From: Gammaproteobacteria bacterium
GTDB lineage: Bacteria > Pseudomonadota > Gammaproteobacteria > SZUA-152
Length of the DNA: 64,000 nt
Reading direction: 5' to 3'
Assembly: GCA_032250735.1 (NCBI GenBank)
Contig: JAVVEP010000002.1
Span: 189,293-253,292 of the forward strand
The position numbers and the translations under genes are program-made. Below are positions 22,807 through 51,854 of the stretch, one piece after another (position 1 is the first letter of the stretch; each line of letters opens with the position of its first letter). The notes below the pieces were generated by a model. The model saw only the letters and a list, made by a program, of their open reading frames with translations, had not been told where the DNA came from and did not search any database.

Positions 22807-25800
22807 CCGCATGGCATCTCGTTTCGGACCGTATCGACTATTAGTGGCGACCAGCGTGTTATTCAGCACGCCGTGTTTTTCCGCACCAGTGGGTGGCGAG
22901 ATCACCGCCGGCACCGGACAGATCCAGACCCTCAGCGACACCACGACACTGGTCACCCAGCAGAGCAATGTGCTGTCCATAAACTGGCAGAGCCTCAACC
23001 TCGGTACCGATGAATTGCTGCGTTTCGAGCAGCCTTCCGCACAGTCAGCGGCCCTGAACAGCATCCTCGACCAGCAGCCCTCCCTGATCTTCGGCAAAAT
23101 CGAGGCCAATGGTCGTGTGTTTCTGATGAACCCCAACGGCATGATCTTTGGTGAATCCGCGCGCATCAATGTCGGCGCATTGGGCGCGGGCGCCTTTCAA
23201 ATGGAGGCCGGTTCATTCAACGACAATGGCGGTTTCTCGTTTACCACGGGCGCGGGGCGGGTGGAGAATGCCGGCCAGATCACGGTGCCGGAGGGTGGCT
23301 CGGTTGCCCTGATCGGACAGACGGTGAGTAACAACGGACAGATCAGCGCCCGGCTGGGCAAGATTCATCTGCTGAGCGCGGATGCCGCCAGCCTGAGCTT
23401 TGACAACGACGGCCTGATCCAGTTTGCGCTCAGCAGGGACACGGTGGAAAACGCCCTCAACAGTGAATCTGCCGTGCATAACAACGGCGTGCTACAGGCC
23501 GATGGCGGTTATGTCGTGCTGGAGGCCCACGCCGCCCGCAACGTCTACCACAACGTGGTGAATAATGAGGGCCTGATCCAGGCCAGCCGTATCCGCAATG
23601 AGGGTGGTGTGATTCGCCTGGAAGGCAGCGGCGGCAATGTCATTAATTCCGGCGAGCTTAACGCGACCGGTTTAGATGAAGGTCAGACGGGTGGCGAGAT
23701 CACGATGATGGGCGATCGCGTCGGGGTGTTCGGGGATGCCCGCATCGATGTCTCCGGTGCGGAGGGTGGCGGCAGCATCGCCATCGGCGGCTATCGCAAG
23801 GGCGCCGGCGAGAACACGGCCGCGTTTACCCAGGTGGGCGCGGACACCGATCTGCGGGCGGATGCCATCAGCCGTGGCGATGGCGGTGAGATTGTCGTCT
23901 GGGCGGATGACACCAGCTGGGCCGCGGGCACAGTGTCCGCCACCGGCGGGGCGCTCGGCGGTGACGGGGGCTTTGTGGAGATCTCCGGCAGGCAGGGCCT
24001 GGTGTTGTCGGCCGGGGTGGACCTGAGTGCGGCCAGGGGTTCGCTGGGCACTCTACTGTTGGATCCAACCGACATCATTATTCACGATCAGGCCGATGGG
24101 GCACAGGGCAATGACGGGCTATTACCGGACCTGTCCGACGCAACACAGGGCGCAGGCAGCTTTGACATCGGCGAACTGGCGCTGGAGGCGCTGGGCTTCA
24201 ATAGCAACCTGGTTCTGGAGGCCACCAACAATATTACGATCAATGACCTCGCCGACAATAGCCTGGACTTTCTCATCAACAGCGGCGGCTCCATCACCAT
24301 GACCGCCGACGCCGGTGTCCCCGATGGGGTGGGCAGCCTGACGATGAACACCGGCGACGCCATCACCACACAGGGCAGCGCGCTGACCCTGTCCGGCGCC
24401 GGCATCACCCTCGGCAGCCTGAGCACGGGCGACGGGGCGATAACCATAAATAGTACAAGAAGTGTCGACATGGGTGCGGCCACCAGTGCCACCAACACAA
24501 TCAATGTCACCGTGGACAGCGACAACAATGGCGCAGAGACCCTGACCCTGCGCGGCGCATTATCCGGCAGCACGGTGAACCTTCTGGGCGGAAGCAATGG
24601 CGGTGACACGCTGATTGCGCCGGATTCCATCAACGCCTGGACGGTCAGCGCCCTCAACGCCGGCACGCTCAATGGCGCGGCCTTCTCACAGTTCCCCAAT
24701 CTCACCGGCGGCAGCCTGGACGACACCTTTGCACTGAGCGGTACGGGAAGCATCGCCGGCGTGTTCGACGGGGCGGGCCATAGTGTAGGCGACACGGTCG
24801 ATTACTCGGGACGACCGGGTGGGATCTTTTCGGTCACCCTGGATGGCAATGTGCAGAATATCGAAAATCTCATCGGCAATGGTAACGACAACTCGACATT
24901 GATCGCCGCTGATGTGGCGAATACCTGGATGATCACCGCCGAAAATGACGGCACGGTGGCGGGAGTTGCCTTTACCAATTTTAAAAATATCACCGGCGGC
25001 AGTGATACCGATGACTTCATACTCAGCGGTGGATCGGTAACGGGCACCGTCGATGGTGGTGGCGGCATCAATAGCCTGACCGCCAACGATACGGACAATG
25101 ACTGGAATATCCTGTCTGCCGATGGTGGCAATATTGTCGCCTCGGTGTTTGCCTTTACCAATATCGCCAACCTGATCGGTGGTGGGCTGGTTGACAGCTT
25201 TCTGATCAATGCCGGATCCATCAGTGGCACGATTGATGGTGGTGCCGGCAGTGATGCACTGTCCGCCGCTAATGTGGCCAATGTCTGGACGATCACCAAT
25301 AATGATGCAGGCACTGTTACCAATGTGAATGCCTTCCAGAGCATCGAAAATCTTATCGGCAGAACCAGTACCGATGATTTCACCCTTGCCGTCGGCGTAA
25401 CGATGAGCGGCACCATAGATGGGGGAGGGGGAGACGATAGCATCGACCTTTCCGCCCAGATAGGTACGGTGGTGGATCTGGCCGGTAGCAGTTATGCCAA
25501 TATCGAGCAATATACCGGTAATGCAACCGACAGCACCCTGATCGGGGCGGACACCCCGAATGTATGGACCATCAATGGCAGTCTTGATGGCATCGATGAC
25601 GGCACCGTGGGGCTGATCAGCTTTACCAATTTTAACAATCTCACCGGCGGCACGGACACGGACACCTTTACCTTATCGGGTGGCACCCTCAGCGGCACCC
25701 TGGACGGCGGCGGCGGCACTGACACCCTGGTGGGCGACAACCTGCCCAATACCTGGAATATATCGTCAGCCGATGCCGGTACGGCAACGGGCATCGGTGG

Positions 25801-28800: not shown

Positions 28801-31063
28801 GGCCGAAAATATCACCAACACCTGGAATGTCACCGCGCAGGATGCCGGCAATCTCACCCAGGTCAACGCCTTTCAGAATATCGACAACCTGCTGGGGGGC
28901 AGCGCCGTTGACACCTTCAACCTCGATGCGAATCTGTCAGGCATGGTGAGCGGCGGCGGGGGAGACGATCTTGTCAATCTGGGTGGGCTGGTGACCATCG
29001 GTGGCGGGCTGATCGGTGGAACCAGCACGGATACGCTGACCGGCCCGGACCAGAATAGTAGCTGGATCATTGCCGGCCTTGACAGTGGCTTTGTGAACGG
29101 CACTGCCTTCTCGCAGATAGAATCCCTCAACGGCGGAATAGGGAATGACAGCTTTAATATCAGCAATGCCGCCGCCGCGGGCATCTCTGGCGGCATCGCG
29201 GGCGGGGCAGGCGACGACAACCTCGCGGTGGACTATGTCGCCGCCTCATCACGCAATATCACGTTTGATGGCGGCACCGGGACCGACAGCATCAGCCTGA
29301 CCGGTACGGCTAGCGGATTGATCAATACATTTACATTTGGACCCGCCAGTGATGCCGTGATGATCACCAGCAACAGCGGTAGTATCAACCAGACAGTAAC
29401 AGGCTCTGGCGTTGAAGCAGCCAACGACAGCATGACCGCCGACACCATCAATCTGCTGGGCTCTACCGGCGACGATGTCATGCAGTTGTCACCGGGATCG
29501 ATCGGCGGTTCACAACCAGTCAGCTTTCAGATTAGCGGAATGCCCGCGCTGCAGTTTTCAAACAAAACCGATCTCGCTATCAATGCCGGTGCGGGAAGCG
29601 ATTCGGTTACCATCACCGGGGCCGTGACGCTGGCCGGTGATATCACGCTTGCCGCCGAATCCGTCGTCCAAGGCGCCGGCGGACAGTTGGGGGCGGACAC
29701 GCTAACTCTCGCCGATGTTGCCAGTATCGGGTCATCCTCTAATCCACTGGCCACCTCGGTCAACACTCTGGACATCACAGGGGCTACAGTAGACGCCTAT
29801 GTTTTAGAGTCCAACGGCCTGGCAGCATCGGCCGAGAACGTCAGCGGAGTCCTGTCGATCACCACCAATGCCGGGAACATTACCTCATCGGGCCGTTTTA
29901 ACGTGACCGGCACATCGGCCTTCGCGGTGGCGGACGGTGGCTCCATCATTCTGGATGATGCGGCAAACCTGTTCTCCGGCACGCCGGGCTTTTCATCGTC
30001 CGGCACCATCCATCACCTGTTATTGACCGACAACAGCGCGGTGGATATTCCCAGCCTCACTCTTACGGGTGATCTGGAAATACTCGCCACGGGTATGGTT
30101 ACCCAGGCGGGGGCACTGAACATACAGGGCAACACCATCATCGATGCCAATACCAGCACGATTACCTTGACCGACGCCGGCAACGATTTCGCCGGTAGCG
30201 TCAGCCTGCGCAATAGCGGACAGGCAAACACCGCCATCACCGATGCCAACAGTCTGCAGCTGGCCGCCTCCAGTGTGGGCAGCGGTACGCTCAACATCAG
30301 CGCCGGGGCCATCAGCCAGTCCGGCTCGCTGGTGCAGGCTGCCGGTGCGGGCACGGCCACCTTCACCGCCGACAGCGGTGATATCGCGCTGACCAATGGA
30401 GGCAACGAATTTACCGGCGCCGTGGTGATCAACAACACAGGTCCCGGCGATAGCGCCTTGACCGACAGCAGCGGACTGACCCTGGCGGCATCGACCACCA
30501 GCGGCGGCGACCTCACGATTATCGCCAATGACACGATCAACCTCAGCGGCACAACTACATCCAATAATGGCGATATCAGCATTACCGCCAACACCGGCGA
30601 TATCCAGTTAGGTCTCCTGAATGCCGGTTCAGGCAGGCTAACTATCAACGCCGCCAGCGGCAATGTGATCGGCGATACCAGCACGATCACCAACCCGAAT
30701 CTCAGCAGTCAGACCCTTGAGATATTCGCCGGCGAGACCATCGGCAGTTTCAACAATCCCATTTCCGTCAATGTCGCCTCAGGTGGCACCAGCCTGTTCA
30801 TCGCCGGTGAGGGGTCGGCGAATATCATCGGCCTACCCGGCACGATTCTCCCAGGCTCGGTACTGGTAAACGACGTCACCACCACCAATATCGCCGTCGG
30901 CAAAGGCCAAAGCGTCTCCTTCATCGAAAACACCATCCGCCCCACACAGGCATTCCTCTCGCCGCTGTACGACATCTCCAGTGGTGGCCTCCACCTGTAC
31001 GACTATGAGTACAACCGCGAACCGGATGAGAAAGCCAAACGGAGAACGGATCGGCGCAAGTAA
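22796..31063 (+). CDS. Giant TpsA exoprotein, filamentous-haemagglutinin-like, with alternating repeats
   Basis: Secreted two-partner-system protein of 2755 residues. Order: signal peptide (LLVATSVLFSTPCFSAPVGG); TPS secretion domain, about residues 32-280, with NPNGMIFG near residue 112 as in FHA-family N-termini; a beta-helix linker with GGFVEISGRQGLVLSAG and LLLDPTDIIIHD; about 20 repeats from residue 613 to 2148 (see repeat entry); and a further beta-helix region rich in Asn, Gly and Thr. It ends in a short basic tail. There is no VENN motif or recognisable toxin domain and no immunity gene, so a large adhesin or matrix protein is more likely than a contact-dependent toxin. The start overlaps tpsB by 11 bases, implying translational coupling. 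ATG 22811 is an alternative start. Confidence 0.9.
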   Translation: MDFNRMASRFGPYRLLVATSVLFSTPCFSAPVGGEITAGTGQIQTLSDTTTLVTQQSNVLSINWQSLNLGTDELLRFEQPSAQSAALNSILDQQPSLIFGKIEANGRVFLMNPNGMIFGESARINVGALGAGAFQMEAGSFNDNGGFSFTTGAGRVENAGQITVPEGGSVALIGQTVSNNGQISARLGKIHLLSADAASLSFDNDGLIQFALSRDTVENALNSESAVHNNGVLQADGGYVVLEAHAARNVYHNVVNNEGLIQASRIRNEGGVIRLEGSGGNVINSGELNATGLDEGQTGGEITMMGDRVGVFGDARIDVSGAEGGGSIAIGGYRKGAGENTAAFTQVGADTDLRADAISRGDGGEIVVWADDTSWAAGTVSATGGALGGDGGFVEISGRQGLVLSAGVDLSAARGSLGTLLLDPTDIIIHDQADGAQGNDGLLPDLSDATQGAGSFDIGELALEALGFNSNLVLEATNNITINDLADNSLDFLINSGGSITMTADAGVPDGVGSLTMNTGDAITTQGSALTLSGAGITLGSLSTGDGAITINSTRSVDMGAATSATNTINVTVDSDNNGAETLTLRGALSGSTVNLLGGSNGGDTLIAPDSINAWTVSALNAGTLNGAAFSQFPNLTGGSLDDTFALSGTGSIAGVFDGAGHSVGDTVDYSGRPGGIFSVTLDGNVQNIENLIGNGNDNSTLIAADVANTWMITAENDGTVAGVAFTNFKNITGGSDTDDFILSGGSVTGTVDGGGGINSLTANDTDNDWNILSADGGNIVASVFAFTNIANLIGGGLVDSFLINAGSISGTIDGGAGSDALSAANVANVWTITNNDAGTVTNVNAFQSIENLIGRTSTDDFTLAVGVTMSGTIDGGGGDDSIDLSAQIGTVVDLAGSSYANIEQYTGNATDSTLIGADTPNVWTINGSLDGIDDGTVGLISFTNFNNLTGGTDTDTFTLSGGTLSGTLDGGGGTDTLVGDNLPNTWNISSADAGTATGIGGGFSSIENLTGNANTDDFIFADGSSLSGVINGATGSDRVDFSAESAAVVVTMGAAGFANIESFEGNNTDSTIIGDNVANDWVINGDNDGTVSYFTGSTAFSNFTNLTGGSDTDSFRLSGGSIIVQIDGGGGVNTLIGYNQVNDWAISGANAGTVTGVVGFSNIENLTGGSDTDNFVFADPGSISGVINGAAGTDEVSYAAKTAAVVVDIADSNFLSIESFIGNDTDSTLLGDNTLNAWSITGANSGTVGIVSFAGFNHLTGNDAADTFQFSVGGSLAGSITGTGSITGGLGNDTLQGKDTDNSWAITGADTGTLNSVVAFSELESLLGGNAVDTFTFADGSSFGGVINGGAGSDVVNQAAITTPVNINLASASFASIESFIGNGTNSSLSGPAVNSTWLVTAIDSGTVNGINFSGFNNITGNTQTDTFQITSGEITGIISGGLGIDTLTARDVANTWNISGTDTGNVTDVASFSQIENLTGGSTTDTFVFGAVGDVSGNINGGAGADTVDLANKSGAVAIDLASSRFTNIETFIGNNINSTLTGPASLNTWQITGNNDGSVGGIAFNNFNNLVGNINVDVFLFQNGGAITGIVDGGSGQDTVDFTLESGVVDVVLGSTNYARIETFVGNNVSSTLTGDALANTWVITDVNEGTLGTISFSDFNNLVGNSGSDHFTLNGGSITGTVDGAAGANTITADNTANSWTITAADAGSVTGISAFSNIENLNGNAGTDGFTFADGGSISGVVNGAGGVDVVDQSAQSGFVNLLLGSSGYTNIESFIGNGGNSTLTGDNTINTWTLTGPDTGTVGSVNFANISNLQGGSNDDSFTTNGGTVTGQINGGSGNDLILAENVINTWNITGANTGNVNGINSFTDIENLLGNASVDNYIFADGSSFSGVIDGAGGSDVVDHSSETNAVIVSLASGQYQNIELFVGNTTNSTLVGDNTTNAWSITGGNAGAVNSINFTGYNNVTGNASADTFTLAGGNITGTIDGGSGNDSIQAENITNTWNVTAQDAGNLTQVNAFQNIDNLLGGSAVDTFNLDANLSGMVSGGGGDDLVNLGGLVTIGGGLIGGTSTDTLTGPDQNSSWIIAGLDSGFVNGTAFSQIESLNGGIGNDSFNISNAAAAGISGGIAGGAGDDNLAVDYVAASSRNITFDGGTGTDSISLTGTASGLINTFTFGPASDAVMITSNSGSINQTVTGSGVEAANDSMTADTINLLGSTGDDVMQLSPGSIGGSQPVSFQISGMPALQFSNKTDLAINAGAGSDSVTITGAVTLAGDITLAAESVVQGAGGQLGADTLTLADVASIGSSSNPLATSVNTLDITGATVDAYVLESNGLAASAENVSGVLSITTNAGNITSSGRFNVTGTSAFAVADGGSIILDDAANLFSGTPGFSSSGTIHHLLLTDNSAVDIPSLTLTGDLEILATGMVTQAGALNIQGNTIIDANTSTITLTDAGNDFAGSVSLRNSGQANTAITDANSLQLAASSVGSGTLNISAGAISQSGSLVQAAGAGTATFTADSGDIALTNGGNEFTGAVVINNTGPGDSALTDSSGLTLAASTTSGGDLTIIANDTINLSGTTTSNNGDISITANTGDIQLGLLNAGSGRLTINAASGNVIGDTSTITNPNLSSQTLEIFAGETIGSFNNPISVNVASGGTSLFIAGEGSANIIGLPGTILPGSVLVNDVTTTNIAVGKGQSVSFIENTIRPTQAFLSPLYDISSGGLHLYDYEYNREPDEKAKRRTDRRK
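24632..29239 (+). repeat. About 20 imperfect repeats of two alternating sizes inside tpsA
   Basis: Each unit starts near Asn-x-Trp (NTW, NDW, NAW, NVW) followed by I-T-G-x-D-x-G-T-V, then an F-x-N-I/F-x-N-L-T-G-G segment, then T-D-x-F-x-F/L, then GSISG-x-I-x-GG-x-G-x-D. Short units are about 59 residues and stop there. Long units are about 94 residues and add a V-V-x-L-A-S-S-x-F-x-N-I-E-S-F-I-G-N block. They mostly alternate short, long, short, long. Exceptions are two short units in succession early in the array (second and third units) and two long units in the middle (twelfth and thirteenth). A composite period is therefore about 153 residues or 460 bases. Divergence is high enough that the DNA is not a simple tandem array. 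Confidence 0.88.
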
Positions 31064-34200: not shown

Positions 34201-37191
34201 ATGGATATCGAACAGGTACCCATCTCGTTGGCCGACGTGATGGAAAAGGCCTGTAGTATGCTGGATGAACTGGCCATTAACAAAAACGTGGTGCTCACTG
34301 TGTTCGTCGATCCCACGATTCCTGAAATGGTCATGGGCGACGATCTACGGTTACGTCAGGTGCTGCTGAATCTTGTTGGCAACGCCATCAAGTTTTCGGG
34401 TAGCCGCCGGCAAGCGGGCAGGGTGTCGGTTCGCGCCGTGCAAATCGAGCGTTCCCAGAAGCAGGCGGTCGTGGAAATCCATGTTGAAGACAATGGCATC
34501 GGAATGGATGAAGCGACGCAACAGCGGATGTTCACTGCATTCACCCAGGCCGACACGTCGACTACCCGGCGCTTCGGTGGCACTGGGATGGGGCTGGTTA
34601 TTTCGCGTCATCTGGTCGAACTGATGGGCGGCCATTTAATGGTGCAAAGCACGCTTGGGCAGAGCTCGACGTTCACCGTGCATCTGAATTTCCCTCTGCA
34701 GCAACACCAAGGGGTAATCGTCAAGTCTATATCGGAAGTGGCGGGACTCTCCTGTCTCGTGGTAGGCATCACGGGCGGCCTGGCCGAAGACATTGCTGCG
34801 TATCTGACGCACGGTGAGGCGCGTGTCGCGCGGGCAGACGACCTGGCGGCGGCACGTACCCTGATGCACAGTTTGCCGCCAGGGCTCTGGAGCTGGATCA
34901 TCGATGCTGTCGATATTCCGCTAGCGCTAAATAATTTCCACATCCTTGCCAGCAATCTGCCGAACCAGGAAATACGCATTATTGCCATTGGGCGCGGATC
35001 GCGAAGGGAGCCGCGTGTGAACGATATCGATGTGGTATTGCTGGATGGGAACGTACTGACGCGTCACCGACTCTTTAAAGCGGTTGCTATTTCCGCAGGA
35101 CGAATACCCGCCGAACAACAAACGCCGCACTCGGACAAGAGCGAGAGGGTATTCAAACCGCCATCTCGCGACGAGGCCCTGCGCAATGGTCGGCTAATTC
35201 TGGTTGCCGAGGACAACGAGACCAACCAGAAGGTGATCCTGTGGCAGCTTGGACTGCTCGGATTTGCTGCCGATGTGGCCGACAATGGTCGTCTGGCACT
35301 GGAACACTGGCAAAGCGGCGACTACGCGTTGCTGCTCACTGATTTGCATATGCCGGAGATGGATGGTTATGCATTGACTGCCGGGATTCGTGCACAGGAG
35401 CAGGGTTCTCGACACATCCCGATCGTGGCGCTGACTGCCAACGCGCTCAGATACGAGGCTGATCGCTGCCGGGCAGCCGGCATGGACGATTATCTAAGCA
35501 AGCCGTTGCAACTGGAAGATCTTAGACAAATCCTGCTAACGTGGTTGCCGACCTCTATACCCAGTCTGGATACCTACAATGTAATCCCGCGAATCGCCGC
35601 CACTCGGGCGGTAGATGTGAGTGTGCTCGAGGGTCTGGTCGGTAATGACCCTGTAGTGATAGACAGGTTCCTGAATGACTTTCGGTCCAGTGCAACAAAC
35701 ATAGCGGCCGAATTAAAAACGGCTTGCGCCGATCATCAGCCGGTGCAGGCAGGAGAGCTGGCGCATAAACTCAAGTCTTCGGCGCGCACCGTGGGCGCCC
35801 TTGCGCTGGGGGAATTGTGCGAAGAGATGGAGACTGCGGGTAAAGCGGGCAGCAATGAAACGCTGGCATTGCAATTGCCGAAGTTTGAGCGCGAATTCGA
35901 TGCGGTTATCATCTTTATCGAGTCCTTACAGGGGCAGGGTGCAGACACCGACAACGATATATATGAAGCCGTACAAATGAACAAATCAACAATCCGGATC
36001 CTGGTACTGGACGATGAGTCATTCACGCTCATATTGCTCGCCAACATGCTGGACGGATTGGGCTTCACCTCGGTGACGACTTGCGACAATGGATCTGAAG
36101 CTCTGCAATGGGTCAGCGCCAGTGCCAACCCACACAATTTGATTCTGCTGGATTTGCAAATGCCAGAGATGGATGGAATCGAATTCGTCCGTAAGCTGGT
36201 CGAGCATAACTACAGCGGAAATCTCATTCTGGTCAGTGGCGAAGACGAACGTGTGCTGCAAATGGCAGAGAAACTGATTCAGGCACACCGCATCACGGTG
36301 CTGGGTCATCTGAAAAAACCCGTTTCAGTGGCTCATTTAACCATGCTGATGAATAAGACGATGCACATGCAAAATGCGCCGCCATCGACAAGGCAGGCTT
36401 ATGGCGTAGACGAACTGCGCACCGCCATCGCCAATGGTGAACTGGTTAATTACTACCAGCCCAAAGTTTCCGTCAGCACCGGCGCGGTCGTCGGTATGGA
36501 AACCCTGGTGCGCTGGCGTCATCCGGTGGACGGGATGGTATTCCCTGACCAGTTCATTGGCATCGCCGAAGAGCATGGTTTGATTGATGATTTGACGCGT
36601 GTGGTGCTGATCGGTGCATTGTCCCAAAGCAAGGCCTGGCAGCAGGCTGGGCTGAGGCTGCGGATGGCGGTTAACGTATCGATGGACAATCTTAGCTCGG
36701 TGGCTTTTGTGGATTTCGTCGCAGATGCAGCCAATGCAGCGGGGGTGACACCGCAGGATATCGTTCTGGAAGTAACGGAAAGCCGGCTCATGCTGGACCA
36801 GCGCGCGCCGCTTGAGGTCCTGACCCGATTGCGCCTGAAACGCTTTCGCCTTTCAATCGATGATTTTGGCACGGGCCATTCTTCGTTTACCCAGTTACGC
36901 GACATTCCTTTTGATGAGCTCAAGATCGACAAAAGCTTTGTTCGCGGCGCATGGCATGATGACACCGCTCGCGCGATCTTTGACGCCAGCCTGAGTCTGG
37001 GCAAGCAACTCGGAATGGAAGTGGTCGCCGAAGGCGTGGAAGATCGCAATGACTGGGACATGGTGCGGCGTACGAAATGCGATATAGCCCAGGGGTATTT
37101 CATTGCAAAGCCAATGCCTGCCGGTGATTTGCCAGCCTGGATCGAGTCGTGGAACGAACGCATGCAACATTTACAGGCGGATTTATTATGA
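31282..37191 (+). CDS. Multidomain PAS/GAF hybrid histidine kinase with HPt, receivers and C-terminal EAL
   Basis: 1969 residues. Domains with rough positions: PAS 22-135, GAF 150-312, PAS 335-445, PAS 452-570, PAS 577-698, GAF 707-870, coiled coil 870-905, HisKA 907-975 (His 917 in [11 protein letters not shown]), HATPase 1022-1145 (DNGIG, GGTGMGL). Then come a degenerate receiver 1153-1265, receiver 1304-1420 (Asp 1354 in [10 protein letters not shown]), HPt 1455-1540 (His 1495 in [13 protein letters not shown]), receiver 1569-1690 (Asp 1624) and EAL 1705-1950. No membrane segment is evident, so it is probably cytoplasmic. The signature EAL reads ETL (1740-1742), while ECVTES-like [26 protein letters not shown] and VVAEGVED are kept, so c-di-GMP phosphodiesterase activity is plausible. 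An internal ATG (35977, residue 1566) begins what looks like a free-standing receiver-EAL protein. Confidence 0.9.
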
Positions 37192-38596: not shown

Positions 38597-38624
38597 ATTT
38601 AACATAATATACATTATGCGTAGT
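38597..38624 (-). other. dif: dif site for XerC/XerD chromosome dimer resolution
   Basis: Read on the minus strand, the XerC arm is ACTACGCATAA, the six-base centre is TGTATA and the XerD arm is TTATGTTAAAT. The centre and XerD arm are identical to the E. coli dif site. The XerC arm differs from E. coli GGTGCGCATAA only in its outer four bases, where the family varies. XerC/D with FtsK resolve chromosome dimers at such a site in the terminus. It could also be a duplicate copy made by an element that integrates at dif. Only one copy was found in the window. Confidence 0.9.
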
Positions 38625-38694: not shown

Positions 38695-39126
38695 CTATAG
38701 TGTTTCTGAAGGTCTTATCGTCGCTTCCGTGCCCAGGGCCTCAATAAGCGCACAGTGAATGTCGCCTCTATCCGCCACTTCGCATTGGGAAAGCAGGTCT
38801 AGCAAAGCGGCATGCATGGATTGAAGGTCTCGCAGGCGTTCTTCGATTTTCTCCACTTTCAACCGCGCCAATTGTTGCACCTCCTGGCAATGACCATCGC
38901 CAAGCTCCAGCAACTCGCCAATCTCTTTGAGGGTGAAACCGAGCTGCTGCGCGCGCCGGATAAAAAGCACGCGCGCGATATCGGCAACCGGATATTGTCG
39001 GAAACCTTGTGCGGGTTTCGGCGGTTCCTGGATCAAGCACAGGCGTTGATAGTAACGGATGGTCTCGATGTTGACGCCCGATCGGTCGGCCAGTTTGCCG
39101 ATGGTAAGTGATTTTGCTGAATCCAT
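38695..39126 (-). CDS. merR: Mercury-responsive regulator MerR
   Basis: 143-residue MerR-family activator/repressor. The N-terminal winged helix begins SLTIGKLADRSGVNIETIRYYQ. The three Hg(II) ligands of MerR are in place at Cys 80 (DGHCQEV), Cys 115 (LLSQCEVA) and Cys 125 (GDIHCALIEALG), close to positions 82, 117 and 126 of the Tn501 protein. It should act on the promoter before merT. Unusually it is the last gene of the mer operon and in the same direction, 15 bases after merA, rather than divergent. It ends about 70 bases from the dif site. Confidence 0.93.
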   Translation of the reverse strand: MDSAKSLTIGKLADRSGVNIETIRYYQRLCLIQEPPKPAQGFRQYPVADIARVLFIRRAQQLGFTLKEIGELLELGDGHCQEVQQLARLKVEKIEERLRDLQSMHAALLDLLSQCEVADRGDIHCALIEALGTEATIRPSETL

Positions 39127-39141
39127 GTTGTGTTTATAGCG

Positions 39142-40880
<1,739 letters not shown>

Positions 40881-40924
40881 AACGTCATTCCTCAATAGTG
40901 TTTACCGTGTTAACGAAAAATCCA

Positions 40925-41338
40925 TCAATCCAGCAGATAAGGCCCGTACCAGGGGAAACTGATCACCACCAGCACGAACACGCTCACGACCCAAAAGGTG
41001 ATGCGCTGCTTGCGCAGATTGGAGGGCCGGGCGCAAGGCGCGTCCACGGCGCAGGCCTGGGGCGTGAGATAAAGTTTGCGGAAGGCCAGGCCCAGAAATA
41101 GCAGGGTCAGGCCGATGAAAATGGGGCGTACCGATTCCAGGGCGCTGAGGTTGCCGATCCACGAGCCGCTGATACCCAGGGTCAGCAACACCAGCGGGCC
41201 GATGCAGCAGGTAGAGGCGGCAATGCCCGCGATGATGCCGCCGATCAGGGTGCCTTTGCTCAGATTCGTGGATTGGCTGGCCGGATTTTCTGCCTTTCCC
41301 GACTGCCCCGACTGCATTGAGGTCTGTGATGTATCCAT
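40925..41338 (-). CDS. merT: Mercuric transport protein MerT
   Basis: Inner-membrane Hg(II) importer, 137 residues. Three hydrophobic segments are visible. The first carries the vicinal Cys pair in AGIAASTCCIGPLVLLTLG, and a second pair lies in the cytoplasmic loop QACAVDAPCARPS. The hydrophilic N-terminus of about 28 residues (MDTSQTSMQSG onward) is longer than in Tn21 MerT. It is the first gene after the mer promoter, with CAGGAG before the ATG. Confidence 0.95.
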   Translation of the reverse strand: MDTSQTSMQSGQSGKAENPASQSTNLSKGTLIGGIIAGIAASTCCIGPLVLLTLGISGSWIGNLSALESVRPIFIGLTLLFLGLAFRKLYLTPQACAVDAPCARPSNLRKQRITFWVVSVFVLVVISFPWYGPYLLD

Positions 41339-41459: not shown

Positions 41460-41490
41460 TTGACATGGAGTCAACTCCAGAGTTTAGGCT
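41460..41490 (+). promoter_or_regulatory. Second MerR-family promoter, rightward
   Basis: TTGACA and TAGGCT are separated by 19 bases. The spacer contains TGGAGTCAACTCCA, a near-perfect palindrome resembling operators of ZntR/PbrR/CadR-type regulators rather than the mer operator next to it. It faces the operon starting at 41531, whose fifth gene encodes a MerR-family regulator. Confidence 0.8.
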
Positions 41491-41530
41491 CTACCCCAAT
41501 ATCCATGAATCCATAACAGGAGCAAATAAA

Positions 41531-42364
41531 ATGAAGCATTTTTCGTGGCCGGCCCTGCCTGGCGCGATAACGGTGGTACTGCTCGCGTTTGGCAGCAATG
41601 CCGCTCTGGCCCACGACCCCATCTTCGGCATCGGCCCCCATGTGCTGTACAAGGGCGGGGTTGAAACCTCCGTCCACCTGCACCGGGAAAAGGCCGGCGA
41701 GGAAACGGAAAACGAACTGGCCCTGGAACTGGTCTACGGCCTCACCGGGGACTGGGCGGCGGGCATCGAACTGCCCTACGCCAGCAAAGAGGAAAATGCG
41801 GAATCCTCCAATGGCCCCGCGGACATCAAGCTGTTCACCAAATACCGCTTCTGGCGCGAGGATTCCTTAGGGCTTCAGGAATCGGCCGCCGTGCTGCTGG
41901 CGGTGAATATGGACAACGGTGACGAAACCCAAAGCCCGCCCCTGGGCAACGGCGCCACGGATGTCCTTGCCGGACTCACTTACGGCTATGAGGGCCTCCA
42001 GTGGTACCGCTGGGCAGCCGCCCGCTACCTGCGCCCCGGCGAGAACGAAGCTGGTTTGCGGATGGGCGAAAAATGGTTCATTGACTTCGTCGGCGGCTGG
42101 CGCCCCACGCCGCCGGAATACCGCAGGCCGGACACGGTCTGGCTGCTGGAACTCAATGGCGAGTTCGCTGAGAAAGCCACGTTGAATGGCAGCGACCTCG
42201 CCAACAGTGGCGGCACGCAGTTGTTCCTCTCCCCCGGCATCTTCTGGACCACCCGCAATTTCGCCATCAAGGCCGGCGTGCAGATACCCATTGCCAGTGA
42301 TCTGAATGGCACGCAGGACAAAACCGACTACCGCGCCAGCGCCAGCTTCGAATGGCACTTTTAA
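41531..42364 (+). CDS. Outer-membrane beta-barrel protein of the metal operon
   Basis: About 277 residues. A signal peptide is present (MKHFSWPALPGAITVVLLAF then SNAALAHDP). The rest alternates polar and hydrophobic residues, with aromatic girdle-like ends and a terminal Phe (ASFEWHF), as in outer-membrane barrels. No precise family can be named; it resembles uncharacterised transporter-type barrels found with metal and hydrocarbon genes. The ATG at 41531 is chosen because AGGAG precedes it; the open frame extends upstream into the -35/-10 region. It is first in an operon controlled by the second MerR-type promoter. Confidence 0.75.
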   Translation: MKHFSWPALPGAITVVLLAFGSNAALAHDPIFGIGPHVLYKGGVETSVHLHREKAGEETENELALELVYGLTGDWAAGIELPYASKEENAESSNGPADIKLFTKYRFWREDSLGLQESAAVLLAVNMDNGDETQSPPLGNGATDVLAGLTYGYEGLQWYRWAAARYLRPGENEAGLRMGEKWFIDFVGGWRPTPPEYRRPDTVWLLELNGEFAEKATLNGSDLANSGGTQLFLSPGIFWTTRNFAIKAGVQIPIASDLNGTQDKTDYRASASFEWHF

Positions 42365-42394
42365 TCCATGAATTCTATTTGAGGAGCACACACC

Positions 42395-42691
42395 ATGGAG
42401 CATTTCGTTCACCTCACTGCTGTCGTCACCCTACTGTGGAGCGGCCTCGCATTCGCCGCCGGCACCCAATACGACCTGCGCGTGGACGGCCTCGCCTGCC
42501 CCTTCTGCGCCTACGGCATCGAAAAGAAGTTCACCAAAACCGAGGGCGTGGCGTCGGTGGACATCGACCTCAAAAACGGCCTGGTGATCGTGAAAACCGC
42601 CGAGGGCAAGACCTTCACCGAGGATGAATTGAAAACCCTCATCAACGACGCCGGCTTCACAATGAAGAGTATGACGGAGAAACCCTTATGA
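42395..42691 (+). CDS. Exported HMA-domain metal-binding protein
   Basis: 98 residues with a short signal peptide (VHLTAVVTLLWSGLAFAAG) and one heavy-metal-associated domain. The site reads DGLACPFCAYGIEKKF, a CPFC variant of the M-x-C-x-x-C motif. It is MerP-like in layout but clearly distinct from the MerP across the promoter. The last four bases overlap the next start (ATGA). It probably binds a soft metal ion in the periplasm; which metal is not shown by the sequence. Confidence 0.85.
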   Translation: MEHFVHLTAVVTLLWSGLAFAAGTQYDLRVDGLACPFCAYGIEKKFTKTEGVASVDIDLKNGLVIVKTAEGKTFTEDELKTLINDAGFTMKSMTEKPL

Positions 42692-43656
42692 GCCGGATTC
42701 GATGGATGTCAGTGGGTGTGGCCATGACCATCCTCACTACGCTCAGTGCCGGCTGCTCCCTCTGGTCGCCCACGCCACAAGAACCGCCTTACCAACTCAT
42801 CAATACCTGGGGTGGCAAAGGCGCGAACCCCGGCTGGTTCAACGAGCCCACCGGCATCGCCGTGTTTGGCAACGAGGTCTTCGTCAGCGACTCGCGCAAC
42901 GCCCGCATCCAGGTGTTCGATCTCGACGGCAACTACAAACGCGCCTTCGGCGAGGCGGGTGAGGCGCCCGGGCAACTGGGCCGTCCGATGAACCTGAGCG
43001 CCGCCCGCGGCGAACTTTATGTGACGGATTACTTCAACGACCGGATACAGGTCTACTCGCTGGACGGTCGCTTCCTGCGCAAGATCGGCAAGGCGGGCAG
43101 CGGCCCGGGTGAATTCGACGCACCCGGCGGCATAACCGTGGCGGGCAACGGCGACGTGTATGTAGCTGACTTTTACAATCAGCGCGTGCAACACCTGAAT
43201 GCCGATGGCGGATTCGTGCGCCAATGGGGCGTAACCCGCGAGGCGGGCATGCTCGGCGGCAAGCTCGGCTATCCCACCGACGTGGCGCTGAGTGCGGACG
43301 GAACGCTGTTCATCGCCGACGGTTACAATGACCGCGTGCTCGCTTTTGGGCCTAACGGAGAGTTGGCGGCCAAATGGGGCGGCCCCTTCGCCATGAACAT
43401 CCACGGCCCGTGGCATGGCTGGTTCGCCACCGTCACCGGCATCACCGTGGGACCTAAAGGCAACGTGTATGTCGCCGATTTCTACAACGACCGCGTGCAG
43501 AAATTCACCCCCGAGGGAGAATTCCTCAACGCCTTCGGCCTCCCCGGCGACGGGACCACGCACACCGCCATCGCCGTGGCGGTGAGTCATGACGGCAGCG
43601 TATTCGTGGCTGACTACGCCAACCATCAAATCCAGCAGTGGAGACGGGATGAGTAA
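42688..43656 (+). CDS. NHL-repeat lipoprotein
   Basis: 322 residues. A lipoprotein signal ends in the lipobox LSAGC (Cys about residue 23). About six NHL-type blades follow, each with phrases such as FNEPTGIAVFGNEVFVSDSR, QVYSLDGRFLRKIG and GNVYVADFYNDRVQKFTPEG, giving a predicted six-bladed propeller. Its orientation in the envelope and its ligand are unknown. Both ends overlap neighbours, so it belongs firmly to this operon. Confidence 0.87.
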   Translation: MSRIRWMSVGVAMTILTTLSAGCSLWSPTPQEPPYQLINTWGGKGANPGWFNEPTGIAVFGNEVFVSDSRNARIQVFDLDGNYKRAFGEAGEAPGQLGRPMNLSAARGELYVTDYFNDRIQVYSLDGRFLRKIGKAGSGPGEFDAPGGITVAGNGDVYVADFYNQRVQHLNADGGFVRQWGVTREAGMLGGKLGYPTDVALSADGTLFIADGYNDRVLAFGPNGELAAKWGGPFAMNIHGPWHGWFATVTGITVGPKGNVYVADFYNDRVQKFTPEGEFLNAFGLPGDGTTHTAIAVAVSHDGSVFVADYANHQIQQWRRDE

Positions 43657-43918
43657 GACCAGTAACATCGAAATCTTCACTGCGTCTCAATGCAACCAGT
43701 GCAGCCGCGCCGTGACCCTGGTGCAGTCCGTGATGGAAGAAATCGGCAATGACTGGATACAGTGGTGCCGGGTGGACGTGGTCGCCGAACTGGATTACGC
43801 GGTGTCCATGGGCGTGCGCGCCACGCCGGCCATTGCCATCGACGGTAAACTGGTGTTTACCGCGCTGCCGGCGCGCGACAAACTTTTACAGACTCTACAA
43901 AACGTCCGTAAATCATGA
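43649..43918 (+). CDS. Small thioredoxin-like protein, CNQC
   Basis: About 89 residues. A thioredoxin-fold start IEIFTASQCNQCSRAVTLV holds the CxxC pair, and VRATPAIAIDGKLVFTALP supplies the cis-proline (T-P) region. No signal peptide is seen, so it is probably cytoplasmic. The ATG at 43649 is chosen from family alignment by eye; the frame is open 20 codons further upstream inside the NHL gene. It ends in an ATGA overlap with the MerR-family gene. It could supply reducing power to, or take metal from, an operon partner. Confidence 0.85.
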   Translation: MSKTSNIEIFTASQCNQCSRAVTLVQSVMEEIGNDWIQWCRVDVVAELDYAVSMGVRATPAIAIDGKLVFTALPARDKLLQTLQNVRKS

Positions 43919-44349
43919 CGTATCGCATCGGCGACATCACCCAGCAGCTCGGCCTCTCCGCCGACACCCTGCGCTATTACGAAAAGATCGGGCTGCTGCC
44001 GAAGGTCAACCGCACGGCGTCGGGCATCCGCGTCTACAGCGACAAAGACATCTCCCGGCTCAGGTTCATTCAGCGCGCGCAAAAGATGAACTTCTCCCTC
44101 GCCGAAATCAAAGACCTGCTCGCCATGCGCACAGACCCGCAACACGCCCGCACCGAGGTGCGCGAACTGACGCGAAAGAAACTGACCGAGATCGAAGACC
44201 ACCTGCAAGACCTCACCACCCTGCGCAATGAACTGACCCTGTTGACCAACCTATGCGCCGCCAGTGAAGAGGGTTGCCCGATTATCGAGGGAATAGAGGA
44301 CAATGAGCGGAAGCAGCGGGCTGAGATCGACCCACACGCGCGACGATGA
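43915..44349 (+). CDS. MerR-family metal regulator of the rightward operon
   Basis: 144 residues. N-terminal MerR helix-turn-helix YRIGDITQQLGLSADTLRYY, then the dimerisation helix and a C-terminal metal loop NLCAASEEGCPIIEG with Cys 114 and Cys 121, as in CueR/CadR/ZntR relatives. Near residues 74-80, where Hg, Cd and Zn sensors have a Cys, it has DPQHART with no Cys, so its ligand set differs from the MerR at 38695. It is embedded in the operon it probably controls, with ATGA overlaps on both sides. Confidence 0.88.
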   Translation: MTYRIGDITQQLGLSADTLRYYEKIGLLPKVNRTASGIRVYSDKDISRLRFIQRAQKMNFSLAEIKDLLAMRTDPQHARTEVRELTRKKLTEIEDHLQDLTTLRNELTLLTNLCAASEEGCPIIEGIEDNERKQRAEIDPHARR

Positions 44350-45011
44350 AACCCTCACTTGCTGTCGCCCGGTTGTTGCTCCTCGGTGCCATCGTCGCCG
44401 CGCTGATCGGCGGCTATCTGCTGCTTGCGCGCACCGGCGCCCTCGCCTTTCTGGAAAACGGCCCCGCGCTGCAAGCGTGGCTGCAAGGATTGGGCATCAT
44501 CGGCCCGCTGGCCATCATCGGTCTGATGACCCTGGCCATTGTCATGAGCCCCATCCCCAGCGCACCCATCGCGCTGGCTGCGGGCGCGGCCTACGGCCAC
44601 ACGGCGGGTACGGCATACGTGCTCATCGGCGCGGAACTGGGCGCCGTCATCGCCTTCACCCTCGGCCGCCTCGCTGGCCTGGCCGCCGTGCAAAAGTGGC
44701 TGGGATCACAAATCATGCAACGCCTGCACGGCTCGCAAAACATGCTCATGCTGATCGTGTTCGGCTCCCGCCTGCTACCGTTCATTTCCTTTGACCTGGT
44801 GAGCTACGCCGCGGGCGTCACGCCTTTGCGCTTCTGGCGCTTCTGCCTCGCCACCCTCGCCGGCATCATCCCCACCAGCTTCCTGCTCGCCCACTTCGGC
44901 GCCGAGATGGCCTCGGGCGAGAGCGAACGCATCGGCACGACGCTATTGTTGCTCGGCATCGTGTCGCTGCTCGTCATCCTGCTACAGCGGTATTCGAAAC
45001 GCCGACAATAA
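44346..45011 (+). CDS. TVP38/TMEM64 (DedA-like) membrane protein
   Basis: 221 residues with about six hydrophobic segments. The VTT-domain signatures are LAAGAAYGHTAGTAYVLIGA with ELGAVIAFTLGR, and GSRLLPFISFDLVSYAAG, with the conserved Arg and Pro. Such proteins are inner-membrane and have been linked to lipid scrambling and metal stress, but no activity can be deduced here. It closes the operon; 59 bases follow before the glucosidase gene. Confidence 0.85.
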   Translation: MKPSLAVARLLLLGAIVAALIGGYLLLARTGALAFLENGPALQAWLQGLGIIGPLAIIGLMTLAIVMSPIPSAPIALAAGAAYGHTAGTAYVLIGAELGAVIAFTLGRLAGLAAVQKWLGSQIMQRLHGSQNMLMLIVFGSRLLPFISFDLVSYAAGVTPLRFWRFCLATLAGIIPTSFLLAHFGAEMASGESERIGTTLLLLGIVSLLVILLQRYSKRRQ

Positions 45012-45085
45012 ACGCCACCCACGTGTAAGAAAACCGGCCTACCGGCGACTACCACTGAAATCGTCAAAGTATGAAGGAGACGCCA

Positions 45086-47745
<2,660 letters not shown>

Positions 47746-47749
<4 letters not shown>

Positions 47750-48600
47750 GCGAACCAGATCAGCCACTACCCCCCGTCGAAATGCCCCACCCGCCGCACC
47801 GCAACCTGCTGCGCGGCCAGAAGGCGCTGGTGACCGGTGCCAGTTCCGGCATCGGCAAGAGCGTGGCCATCTATCTGGCGCAGGAGGGCGCGGACGTGGT
47901 GGTCAATTATTCCGGTAACGACAGCGCTGCGGCCGCGGTGGTGGACGAGATCAAGGCCAAGGGCGGCCACGCCATCGCCATCAAGGCCGATGTCTCGAAA
48001 GAGGACCAGGTGCAGGCCATGTTCCGACAGATGTTCGACGCCTTCGGCACCATCGACGTGCTGGTCAACAACGCCGGCCTGCAACAGGACGCCCCCTTCG
48101 ACGAAATGACCCTGGCCCAGTGGCAGCGGGTCATCGACGTCAACCTCACCGGCCAGTTCCTCTGCGCCCGCGAGGCCATCCGCGAATTCAAACGCCGCGG
48201 CGTGGTGGCGGAGATCTCCTGCGCCGCCGGCAAGATCATTTCCATGAGTTCGGTGCACGAGGTCATTCCGTGGGCCGGGCACGTCAACTACGCCGCGTCC
48301 AAGGGCGGCGTGATGCTCATGACCAAGAGCATCGCCCAGGAGGTCGCACCCTGGCGCATCCGCGTCAACAGCGTCTGCCCCGGCGCCATCCGCACGCCCA
48401 TCAACCGAGCGGCGTGGGAGACCCAGGAGGCCCACGACGACCTGATGCGCCTGATTCCCTACAAGCGCATCGGCGAGCCGGAAGAGATCGGCCGCGCCGT
48501 GGTGTGGCTGGCCTCCGATGACGCCGACTACATCAACGGCATCAGCCTGTTCATCGACGGGGGGATGACGCTGTATCCGGGATTCGCCACGGGTGGCTAA
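47746..48600 (+). CDS. Short-chain dehydrogenase, glucose 1-dehydrogenase-like
   Basis: 284 residues. NAD(P)-binding motif [20 protein letters not shown], structural VNNAG, and catalytic Ser-Tyr-Lys in [11 protein letters not shown] and YAASKGG. The insert [17 protein letters not shown] and the C-terminus [18 protein letters not shown] fit glucose 1-dehydrogenases of the Bacillus type, which oxidise beta-D-glucose to gluconolactone. It follows the glucosidase with a four-base overlap, so released glucose is a natural substrate. The N-terminal 25 residues are a proline-rich extension. Confidence 0.88.
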
Positions 48601-49378
48601 CAGGGAGTTGCGCGCCCACTGGCCCGAATACCTGATGGAGGCCTGGGGACTGGGCACCTTCATGCTGATGGCCGGAGTCTGCGTGACCCTGCTGGAGGCG
48701 GCCGGCTCGCCGCTGCGCGAGTGGCTGCCGAACGCCGATGCCCGCCGCGCCCTCGTCGGCCTGGCCATGGGACTGACCGCCGTGGGCATCATCTACTCGC
48801 CCTGGGGCCGGCGCTCCGGCGCCCACATCAACCCGGCGGTGACCCTTAGCTTTTTGCGCCTGGGCAAGATCGCCCGCACCGACGCGCTGTTCTACATCCT
48901 CGCCCAGTTCGCGGGCGGCACGGCGGGGGTGCTCGCCGCCTGGGCGCTGCTCGGCCAGCGCTTCGCCGCGTCGCCGGTCAGTTATGTCACCACCGTGCCC
49001 GGACCGGCCGGCGCAGGCATCGCCTTCGCCGCCGAATTCGCCATTTCGGCGGGCCTGATGCTGGCGGTGTTGTGGTTCCTGAACCACGCCCGCCTCGCCC
49101 GCTTCACCGGCCTGGCGGCGGGCATTCTCGTCGCCACCTACATCACGGTCGAAGCCCCGCTGTCGGGCATGAGCATGAACCCTGCGCGCAGCTTCGCCTC
49201 CGCCCTTCCCGGCGCGCACTGGACCGCGCTGTGGCTGTATTTCACCGCACCGGTGCTGGGCATGCTCGCCGCCGTCGAGGTCTACCGGCGCTGTAGCTCC
49301 ACGCGCCCCATGTGCGCCAAGCTCGACCACCCGGACAATAAACCGTGCATCCATTGCGGCCAGAAAGGCCGGTCATGA
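48593..49378 (+). CDS. Aquaporin/glycerol facilitator family (MIP) channel
   Basis: 261 residues with six membrane helices and the two half-helix NPA motifs: GAHINPAVTLSFL and GMSMNPARSFASA. A C-terminal extension after the last helix has four Cys (RRCSSTRPMCAKLDHPDNK, then CIHCGQKG), which suggests metal binding and is not usual for the family. The GTG start overlaps the end of the SDR gene by eight bases. Whether it passes water, glycerol or another small solute is not clear from the selectivity residues I could place. Confidence 0.9.
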   Translation: MANRELRAHWPEYLMEAWGLGTFMLMAGVCVTLLEAAGSPLREWLPNADARRALVGLAMGLTAVGIIYSPWGRRSGAHINPAVTLSFLRLGKIARTDALFYILAQFAGGTAGVLAAWALLGQRFAASPVSYVTTVPGPAGAGIAFAAEFAISAGLMLAVLWFLNHARLARFTGLAAGILVATYITVEAPLSGMSMNPARSFASALPGAHWTALWLYFTAPVLGMLAAVEVYRRCSSTRPMCAKLDHPDNKPCIHCGQKGRS

Positions 49379-50805
49379 ACCACGACTTCGACGCCATCGT
49401 CATCGGCTCCGGTGCGGGGGGCAGCGCCACGGCCTATCAACTGGCACGCCACGGCAAGCGCGTGCTGGTGCTGGAAAAGGGCGGGCGGCTACCACGCGAC
49501 GGCAGCACCCTCGACGTCCGCCAGGTGTTCGGCGAGGGCCGCTTCGGCAACAAACAGATCTGGCGCGACGGCCGGGGCGAAGTCTTCACCCCCGGCGAGT
49601 TCTACAACCTGGGCGGCAAGACCAAGTGGTACGGCGCAGCCCTGTTGCGCTTCATGCCCCACGAGTTCAAGGCCGACGCGGCACACCAATGCCTGCCCTG
49701 GCCCATCGGCTACGACGTTCTCGCGCCCTGGTACGACGAGGCCGAGCGCCTGCTCGGCGTACGCCACTTCGAACACGAGGCCGATTTGCGGCGCCTGATC
49801 GCGGGCATCACGGCACAGGGCGATTGGCGGGCCGAATCGCTGCCCCTCGGGCTTCGCCCCGCCATAATTTCCGACCTGCGTGAAGCCAAACATTTTGACG
49901 GCTTCGCCTCCGTGGCCGGCCACAAGGCCGACGCCGAGCGCAGCCTGTTGGAAAGCGTAACGACGACACCCGGCTGCGCGGTGAAACTCAACTATAAGGC
50001 CATTGGCTTCAGCCACGCCGACGGCGACCCCGCCACCCTCACCGGCGTGAACTGCCTGGGAGGCGCCCATTTCACCGCCCCGACCATCATCCTCGCCGCC
50101 GGAGCCATGAGTTCGCCACGGCTGCTGCAGGCCTATTTCAGTCACACTGGTCTGGAGGCCACCCTGCCCTCCGCGCGGCAGGCCGGCGCCCATTTCAAGA
50201 TGCACGTCAACAGCGCCCTGCTGGCCTTCGCGCCGCGCAAGTTTCGCGACGCGCTGCGCAAGACGGCTATCTTCTTCAACGACGCCTTTCCGCACAGCTC
50301 GGTGCAACCGCTGGGCTGGCTGGACGGCGAGATCCTCGCCACCCAACTGCCCGGCTTCGTGCCGGGTTTCGTCACGAAAGCGCTGGGCGCGCGGGCCTAC
50401 GGCTTTTTCGTCACCACCGAAGACGGCTCCACCCCCGACAACCGCATCACCGAGGGCACCGACGGCCCGGTGATGGACTACGACCTGGCCCGCCTCGGCC
50501 CGGCACGGACCGAACACCGCGCCGTGCTGCGCGCCTTCAAACGGGCGCTGCTGCGCCGCGGCCTGCTGAGCGCGGCGCGCCACATGGGTCCCGCCGGCAC
50601 CGCCCACGCCCTGGGCAGCCTGGTGATGGGCGACGATCCCGCACATTCCGTCGTCGATGCCCACGGCCGCGTCCACGGTCTGCGCAATCTATACGTCGCC
50701 GACGGCAGCGTCCTGCCGCGCTCCAGCCGGGTCAATCCGGCGCTGACCATCTACGCCTGGGGCCTGCGCCTGGGCGAGCATCTCGCCCCGGAGAACTCCG
50801 CATGA
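49375..50805 (+). CDS. GMC-family FAD-dependent oxidoreductase
   Basis: About 476 residues. The FAD-binding start is DAIVIGSGAGGSATAYQLAR with VLVLEKGG. A mid-region TIILAAGAMSSPRLLQ and the C-terminal LYVADGSVLPRSSRVNPALT are GMC signatures. Members oxidise alcohols or sugars; the substrate is unknown. The frame is open upstream to 49345 but the ATG at 49375 overlaps the aquaporin stop as ATGA and starts cleanly at the FAD motif. It ends in another ATGA overlap with the VOC gene. Confidence 0.88.
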   Translation: MNHDFDAIVIGSGAGGSATAYQLARHGKRVLVLEKGGRLPRDGSTLDVRQVFGEGRFGNKQIWRDGRGEVFTPGEFYNLGGKTKWYGAALLRFMPHEFKADAAHQCLPWPIGYDVLAPWYDEAERLLGVRHFEHEADLRRLIAGITAQGDWRAESLPLGLRPAIISDLREAKHFDGFASVAGHKADAERSLLESVTTTPGCAVKLNYKAIGFSHADGDPATLTGVNCLGGAHFTAPTIILAAGAMSSPRLLQAYFSHTGLEATLPSARQAGAHFKMHVNSALLAFAPRKFRDALRKTAIFFNDAFPHSSVQPLGWLDGEILATQLPGFVPGFVTKALGARAYGFFVTTEDGSTPDNRITEGTDGPVMDYDLARLGPARTEHRAVLRAFKRALLRRGLLSAARHMGPAGTAHALGSLVMGDDPAHSVVDAHGRVHGLRNLYVADGSVLPRSSRVNPALTIYAWGLRLGEHLAPENSA

Positions 50806-51827: not shown

Positions 51828-51854
51828 ATAAACCTAAAAAAGAGGAGCCGACCC

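Follow-up and report, generated by a model that had tools for sequence, protein, structure and literature searches.

The question raised by this locus is whether a 28-bp sequence on the minus strand of the 64,000-nucleotide stretch of gammaproteobacterial DNA analysed here (the window) is the ordinary dif site of its chromosome, or whether it represents an attachment site at the end of an element that has integrated at dif, a plasmid-type Xer site or a chance match. A preliminary description had named it a chromosomal dif, and this assignment is supported: given its arms and centre, its non-coding location, its single copy, a skew peak 2.7 kb away and the presence of XerC, XerD and FtsK-gamma genes, 38597-38624 is very probably an ordinary chromosomal dif (probability approximately 0.96), with a predicted function in dimer resolution by XerC/XerD with FtsK. 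As such, the dif of the window is routine.

Sequence and copy number of the site

Read on the minus strand from 38624 to 38597, the sequence is ACTACGCATAATGTATATTATGTTAAAT, in which an 11-bp XerC arm, a 6-bp centre and an 11-bp XerD arm are distinguished, the whole being located in a non-coding gap between two genes with convergent ends:

38597..38624, minus strand: dif site, 28 bp, with three mismatches to E. coli dif and the sole copy in the genome
38614..38624, minus strand: XerC arm, ACTACGCATAA, assigned by register with E. coli dif as we take it to be
38608..38613, minus strand: central hexamer, TGTATA, read from the sequence
38597..38607, minus strand: XerD arm, TTATGTTAAAT, presumably the same as that of E. 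coli
38382..38694, no strand: non-coding gap of 313 bp holding dif, between the convergent ends of a response regulator gene and merR, as judged from the open reading frames and gene families

The reference in this comparison is the 28-mer that we take to be E. coli dif, including its XerD arm and 6-bp centre. Relative to it, three mismatches are present, at positions 1, 2 and 4, all in the outer XerC arm, while positions 5-28 are identical, and the claim in the preliminary description that 24 contiguous bases match, with only the outer XerC arm altered, is true to the base.

The genome to which the window belongs comprises 3,428,433 bp in 61 contigs and is 99.23% complete. A search for further copies, the check proposed alongside that claim, returned a single site, the dif of the window, for the 24-mer at up to three mismatches across the assembled sequence of this 3.43-Mb, 61-contig genome (i.e., outside assembly gaps), and the centre plus XerD half (17 bp) was likewise matched only once in the genome at up to two mismatches, again at dif. 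Twelve genome matches were obtained with the XerC half (dif and 11 others), and since a reversed control pattern yields an equal count (12), the 11 non-dif matches are at chance level. Given the 61 contigs, it is possible that a second dif is hidden in an assembly gap.

At up to 3/24 mismatches, the motif was found in 26 of 40 genomes and, within the family, in 16 of 24 (the genome of the window being included in both counts); the eight family genomes in which it was not matched at this threshold include three of the 15 with a completeness of at least 90%. The first four bases of dif vary across relatives (AGTT, AGTG, ACTT, ATTT, GTTG and TAAA, among others), and the XerD arm varies less. Furthermore, nucleotides 1-4 and 27-28 of dif vary within species according to the accessible text of PMC2731167, and the three altered bases of the window site would fall in this variable part. 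Because positions 1-4 vary even within species in that account, the altered XerC arm (ACTA) is not diagnostic of a foreign half, and its interpretation as a foreign attachment half was rejected on the grounds of this variable end and the lack of a partner site.

Position on the contig and recombination genes

The window corresponds to C2:189293-253292, where C2 is a contig of 253,292 bp that ends where the window ends and has one 100-N gap (47903-48002). Cumulative GC skew was plotted on this contig, not on a closed chromosome, and its maximum lies 2.7 kb from dif (C2:227889), i.e., within the few kilobases that had been anticipated for a chromosomal dif. In 10-kb bins, skew is positive from the contig start to 230 kb and negative beyond; to the left of dif (228 kb) its mean is +0.0645 and to the right (25 kb) -0.0393, the negative value resting on little sequence, since the right arm is short and partly GC-rich (up to 0.70). 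KOPS-like GGGNAGGG motifs on the contig point toward dif in 21 of 24 cases (19/22 on the left and 2/2 on the right), a polarity that represents at most modest support, since mononucleotide content alone predicts approximately 2:1 on the left and the right arm has only two such motifs. The features concerned are:

41280 (C2:230572), no strand: maximum of the cumulative GC skew of the 253-kb contig
25422..25429, plus strand: KOPS-like GGGNAGGG, toward dif, from a motif search
34416..34423, plus strand: KOPS-like GGGNAGGG, toward dif, from a motif search
35932..35939, plus strand: KOPS-like GGGNAGGG, toward dif, from a motif search
49203..49210, minus strand: KOPS-like GGGNAGGG, toward dif, from a motif search
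50162..50169, minus strand: KOPS-like GGGNAGGG, toward dif, from a motif search

Among the relatives, the motif lies 0.2 kb from the skew maximum of a 138-kb contig in G014, 1.2 kb from the contig maximum in G011, 1.1 kb in G096 and 11.7 kb in G016, where skew is +0.0457 and -0.0456 on either side. The distance is approximately 30 kb in G010, with a 53-kb island between, and approximately 27 kb in the outgroup genome G074, whose 36-kb contig has little skew.

Genes for the recombination machinery are present in the genome, namely those for XerD (C16, 382 bits against an NCBIfam cut-off of 330) and XerC (C3, 367 bits against 335), while five more stretches, on C4, C25 and C27, match the XerD model less strongly. 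FtsK_gamma was matched over the Pfam cut-off on C13, and the 562 scanned residues of this FtsK frame match PRK10263 (E. coli-type FtsK) with 753 bits, which is below the whole-protein cut-off of 1566. The types of dif and of FtsK/Xer point to a gammaproteobacterium. By analogy with E. coli, FtsK would load at KOPS motifs, move toward dif and contact XerD; XerD would then perform the first of two strand-pair exchanges and XerC the other, by which a chromosome dimer would be converted to two monomers at division. The locus shares with the E. coli system, as we take it to be, the 24 bases, the arm lengths, the centre, the terminus position and the XerC/XerD/FtsK-gamma genes, and differs from it in the three outer XerC-arm bases and in its neighbours, here a mer operon on one side and a hybrid kinase/response regulator on the other.

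In the accessible text of PMC2731167, proteobacterial dif sites are described as lying in non-coding DNA close to the skew maximum, at a median distance of 7,277 bp, and as better conserved in the XerD arm, single copy being one of the search criteria of that study; the dif of the window, which is non-coding, single-copy and near a skew peak with a conserved XerD arm, fits these traits. In the part of PMC3025954 that is accessible, dif is reported to correlate strongly with the skew shift point, and termination is argued to occur near, not at, dif. The earlier statement that the site locates the terminus to the base is therefore too strong: it holds insofar as the terminus region is marked, but as a placement of the base at which replication forks meet it was overclaimed.

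Neighbouring genes and alternative readings of the site

To the left of dif lie a two-partner-secretion transporter (20836-22806, ShlB/POTRA), an adjoining 2755-aa protein (22796-31063) for which no Pfam match was obtained, a 1969-aa hybrid kinase with GAF, PAS and EAL domains, and a 410-aa response regulator. The other side is occupied by a mercury-resistance operon, which is a neighbour of dif and has no part in its function:

38695..41338, minus strand: merT-merP-merA-merR operon, on the XerC side of dif

MerR and MerT are over their Pfam cut-offs and MerA is over NCBIfam cut-offs, MerR (145.5 bits) being just below its NCBIfam cut-off of 150.85; the assignment of MerP is based on its position and on a resemblance to mer operons. 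Beyond mer, on the plus strand, are genes for a Phenol_MetA_deg-type protein, an NHL-repeat protein, a second MerR and a VTT protein. The DNA of the mer region has at most moderate similarity to plasmid mer operons, and among 4,470 plasmid records with a match there is not one in which a single place accounts for 80% of the region. The frequency of promoter- and terminator-like sites near dif and mer does not exceed that in shuffles, a repeat search returned short imperfect pairs only, and no Rfam match at gathering score was obtained in the window or in L036, L037 and L040.

Of note, the plus-strand gene run at 41465-53969 reaches a GC content of 0.70, compared to 0.557 for the contig, and holds genes for NHL-repeat, second MerR and VTT proteins, GH63-like and glycogen-debranching-like enzymes and a GMC oxidoreductase; it was possibly acquired. 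A MerR-type promoter-like stretch (TTGACATGGAGTCAACTCC...), read by eye, is present at 41460-41490 before the gene run from 41465; the listed start at 41465 is probably too early, and the second MerR (43915-44349) may have this stretch as its target.

In G010, genes corresponding to those at 41465-44349 (65-82% identity) lie on the same side of dif, and in G011 the other side of dif carries counterparts of the secretion pair (62-65%), so that the flanks are partly common to two of the five same-genus genomes compared; mer sits between dif and the flank common to G010. A protein with 62% identity to the 2755-aa protein is encoded close to the second dif-like site of G011. Around dif in G003 and G004, no match to any of the 40 window proteins compared was found, and in G005 only the two MerR were matched. 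In the relatives compared, similarity to the hybrid kinase and the response regulator near dif does not go beyond the domain level, and outside its receiver part the response regulator is matched by no relative among the matches listed. Matches to the hybrid kinase were found at 78 loci in genome contigs (many groups, 33-69% identity), and dif at up to two mismatches is present in 9 of 16 genomes chosen from among these loci.

Elements between two direct dif-like sites, one of which has an altered arm (the IMEX arrangement), were found in G011 and G010. The sites of the former (C85; L035/L036), at 8917 (one XerD-arm change) and 21129 (XerC arm altered), enclose genes for a P2-type capsid protein (PM2 type), a Phage_GPA replication protein and a holin as well as a terminase-family match, and from this gene content G011:C85:8917-21129 is apparently a PM2-type tailless provirus integrated at dif by host Xer. 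The accessible text of PMC9966536 proposes that NO16-type prophages integrate at dif-like sites and notes a presumptive one in PM2. The sites of the latter (C77; L037-L040), at 25628 (altered XerD arm, TTATGTTATGC) and 79019 (intact), are 53 kb apart, and seven of the nine island proteins scanned match TraI_2, a TraD/TrwB-like coupling protein, TraC, TraU, TraG_N, a topoisomerase and a ParA-like ATPase, the remaining two being without a match; a Tn3 transposase is located just outside. This is apparently a conjugative island with F-type conjugation genes integrated at dif, and it resembles the gonococcal genomic island, which is 57 kb in length with a divergent XerD arm according to the accessible text of PMC5357621. 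The CTX phage, the gonococcal genomic island and LME-1, which integrate at dif via host Xer, are like the elements of G010 and G011 but not like the window site, for which a second site was not found in the genome.

It is nevertheless conceivable, though distinctly unlikely, that the dif of the window is itself one end of an integrated element carrying mer, the outer XerC bases being derived from that element and the partner site lying beyond the contig end or having been worn away. The merR stop is only 70 bp from dif, on the side where the XerC arm is altered, two same-genus genomes contain elements between two dif-like sites, and further mer operons also adjoin dif-like sites (see below). 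However, two direct dif-like sites flanking an element were not found in the window: no other position has fewer than 9/24 mismatches to dif in 20000-64000, or fewer than 8/24 on the whole contig, and none has up to 3/24 in the rest of the genome, the last of these being the only bound that applies beyond the contig end. Moreover, since genes 41465-44349 are on the same side of dif in G010, the end of the element is confined to 38.6-41.5 kb, a stretch in which a partner site was not seen, and the ACTA end is, given the within-species variation discussed above, not diagnostic of its origin. Acinetobacter pdif modules, in which adaptive genes are located between Xer sites, are similar in that a resistance operon adjoins a Xer site, but the window has one site, on a chromosomal contig near a skew peak, and no bracketing pair.

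The reading as a Xer site of plasmid type (cer, psi or pdif), borne by a large non-chromosomal replicon, which is the placement that had been named as a refutation of chromosomal dif, is highly improbable and was rejected on the basis of the contig skew. The size of the contig (253 kb), its one-directional skew turning near the site and the core genes of the window (a NuoL-type complex I subunit, EF-G and RapA) favour a chromosome over a plasmid, and the 6-bp centre is like that which we take to be present in E. coli dif. The observation in favour of a plasmid is that both arms are common to plasmid Xer sites, which is established knowledge and is found in the accessible text of PMC6449649. 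Finally, a chance match has a negligible probability and was rejected, since 100 dinucleotide-preserving shuffles of the window gave no match to dif at up to three mismatches and only 2.4e-8 chance copies of the exact 24-mer are expected in 3.43 Mb on both strands.

Mercury-resistance operons beside dif-like sites

A mer operon is present within 5 kb of dif or a dif-like site in five lineages, i.e., those of the window genome, G022, G074, G096 with G232, and G369 (loci 38695-41338, L053, L223, L230, L240 and L245). In G022, which belongs to the same family and another genus, the merR start lies 147 bp from dif on the other side, with the order R-T-P-A, on a contig of only 3.2 kb that limits the view of its flanks; this is the one case among 17 MerT matches in the family, outside the index case, that adjoins dif. 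The MerT match of G016 is 58 kb from dif, and no dif-like site is present near the second mer operon of the window's own genome.

In a survey of the class, a close MerR was found in 62 of 369 genomes (67 matches, two of them in the own genome), and the 65 outside the own genome were taken with flanks of up to 5 kb on each side of MerR, cut at contig ends. A MerT or MerP match is present at 37 of these 65 loci, while eight of the other 28 have a MerA-like match. A dif-like site at up to 5/24 mismatches was found at 4 of the 37 mer loci, three of the four being at up to two mismatches: approximately 150 bp from merR in G074 (two mismatches, on a contig without a skew peak at the site), approximately 4.2 kb away in G096 and G232, which are of one genus (one mismatch each), and 2.6 kb from merR in G369 (five mismatches with an altered centre), where the site may not be a chromosomal dif. 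At L230:4520-4547, an intact XerD arm, with the centre GATGGA in place of TGTATA, adjoins merTPAR on a 5.7-kb contig.

The four sites compare with 0.11 expected under uniform placement and one dif per 3.1 Mb (Poisson P approximately 5e-6, with the loci treated as independent), and because G096 and G232 are of the same genus they represent three independent survey cases, not four. The mismatch cut of five was chosen after the matches had been seen, and the mer pattern had been noticed before testing; the reversed control pattern gave matches in the survey only at six or seven mismatches. None of the 28 MerR loci without MerT or MerP has a dif-like site, which is a weak control since 0.09 were expected. 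In this sample, mer is commoner within 5 kb of dif-like sites than uniform placement predicts, an observation to be regarded as a lead rather than a finding, and a general clustering of acquired genes near the terminus could explain the excess.

The differences between the cases in side, orientation and gene order suggest that mer arrived beside dif on separate occasions. Furthermore, the NHL protein of G369 is 49% identical to that of the window, and mer and NHL genes therefore occur together near a dif-like site in two families. The contigs of G074 (36 kb), G096 (178 kb) and G369 (5.7 kb), searched in full, yielded no second dif-like site, and none was found on the contig of G232 or beside the mer operon of the window. 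A tentative and rather doubtful explanation is that dif is a recurrent landing site for mer in Gammaproteobacteria, where Xer-dependent elements would arrive and subsequently lose one bracket, leaving mer beside dif; as no second site brackets the mer operon of the window, Xer-borne mer is to be considered hypothetical. A literature search for mer with dif or Xer returned no report of mer at dif, although full texts may yet hold one, and the two mentions of mercury in the accessible text of PMC6449649 belong to one reference-list entry.

The ordinary dif of the window orients its contig by marking the replication terminus region, in agreement with the flip in strand composition near 41 kb, and it serves as a warning that nearby accessory genes may have arrived there because dif is known as an integration target. 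If mer truly clusters at dif, the dimer-resolution machinery of the host would constitute a route, of which no report was found, for the spread of metal resistance.
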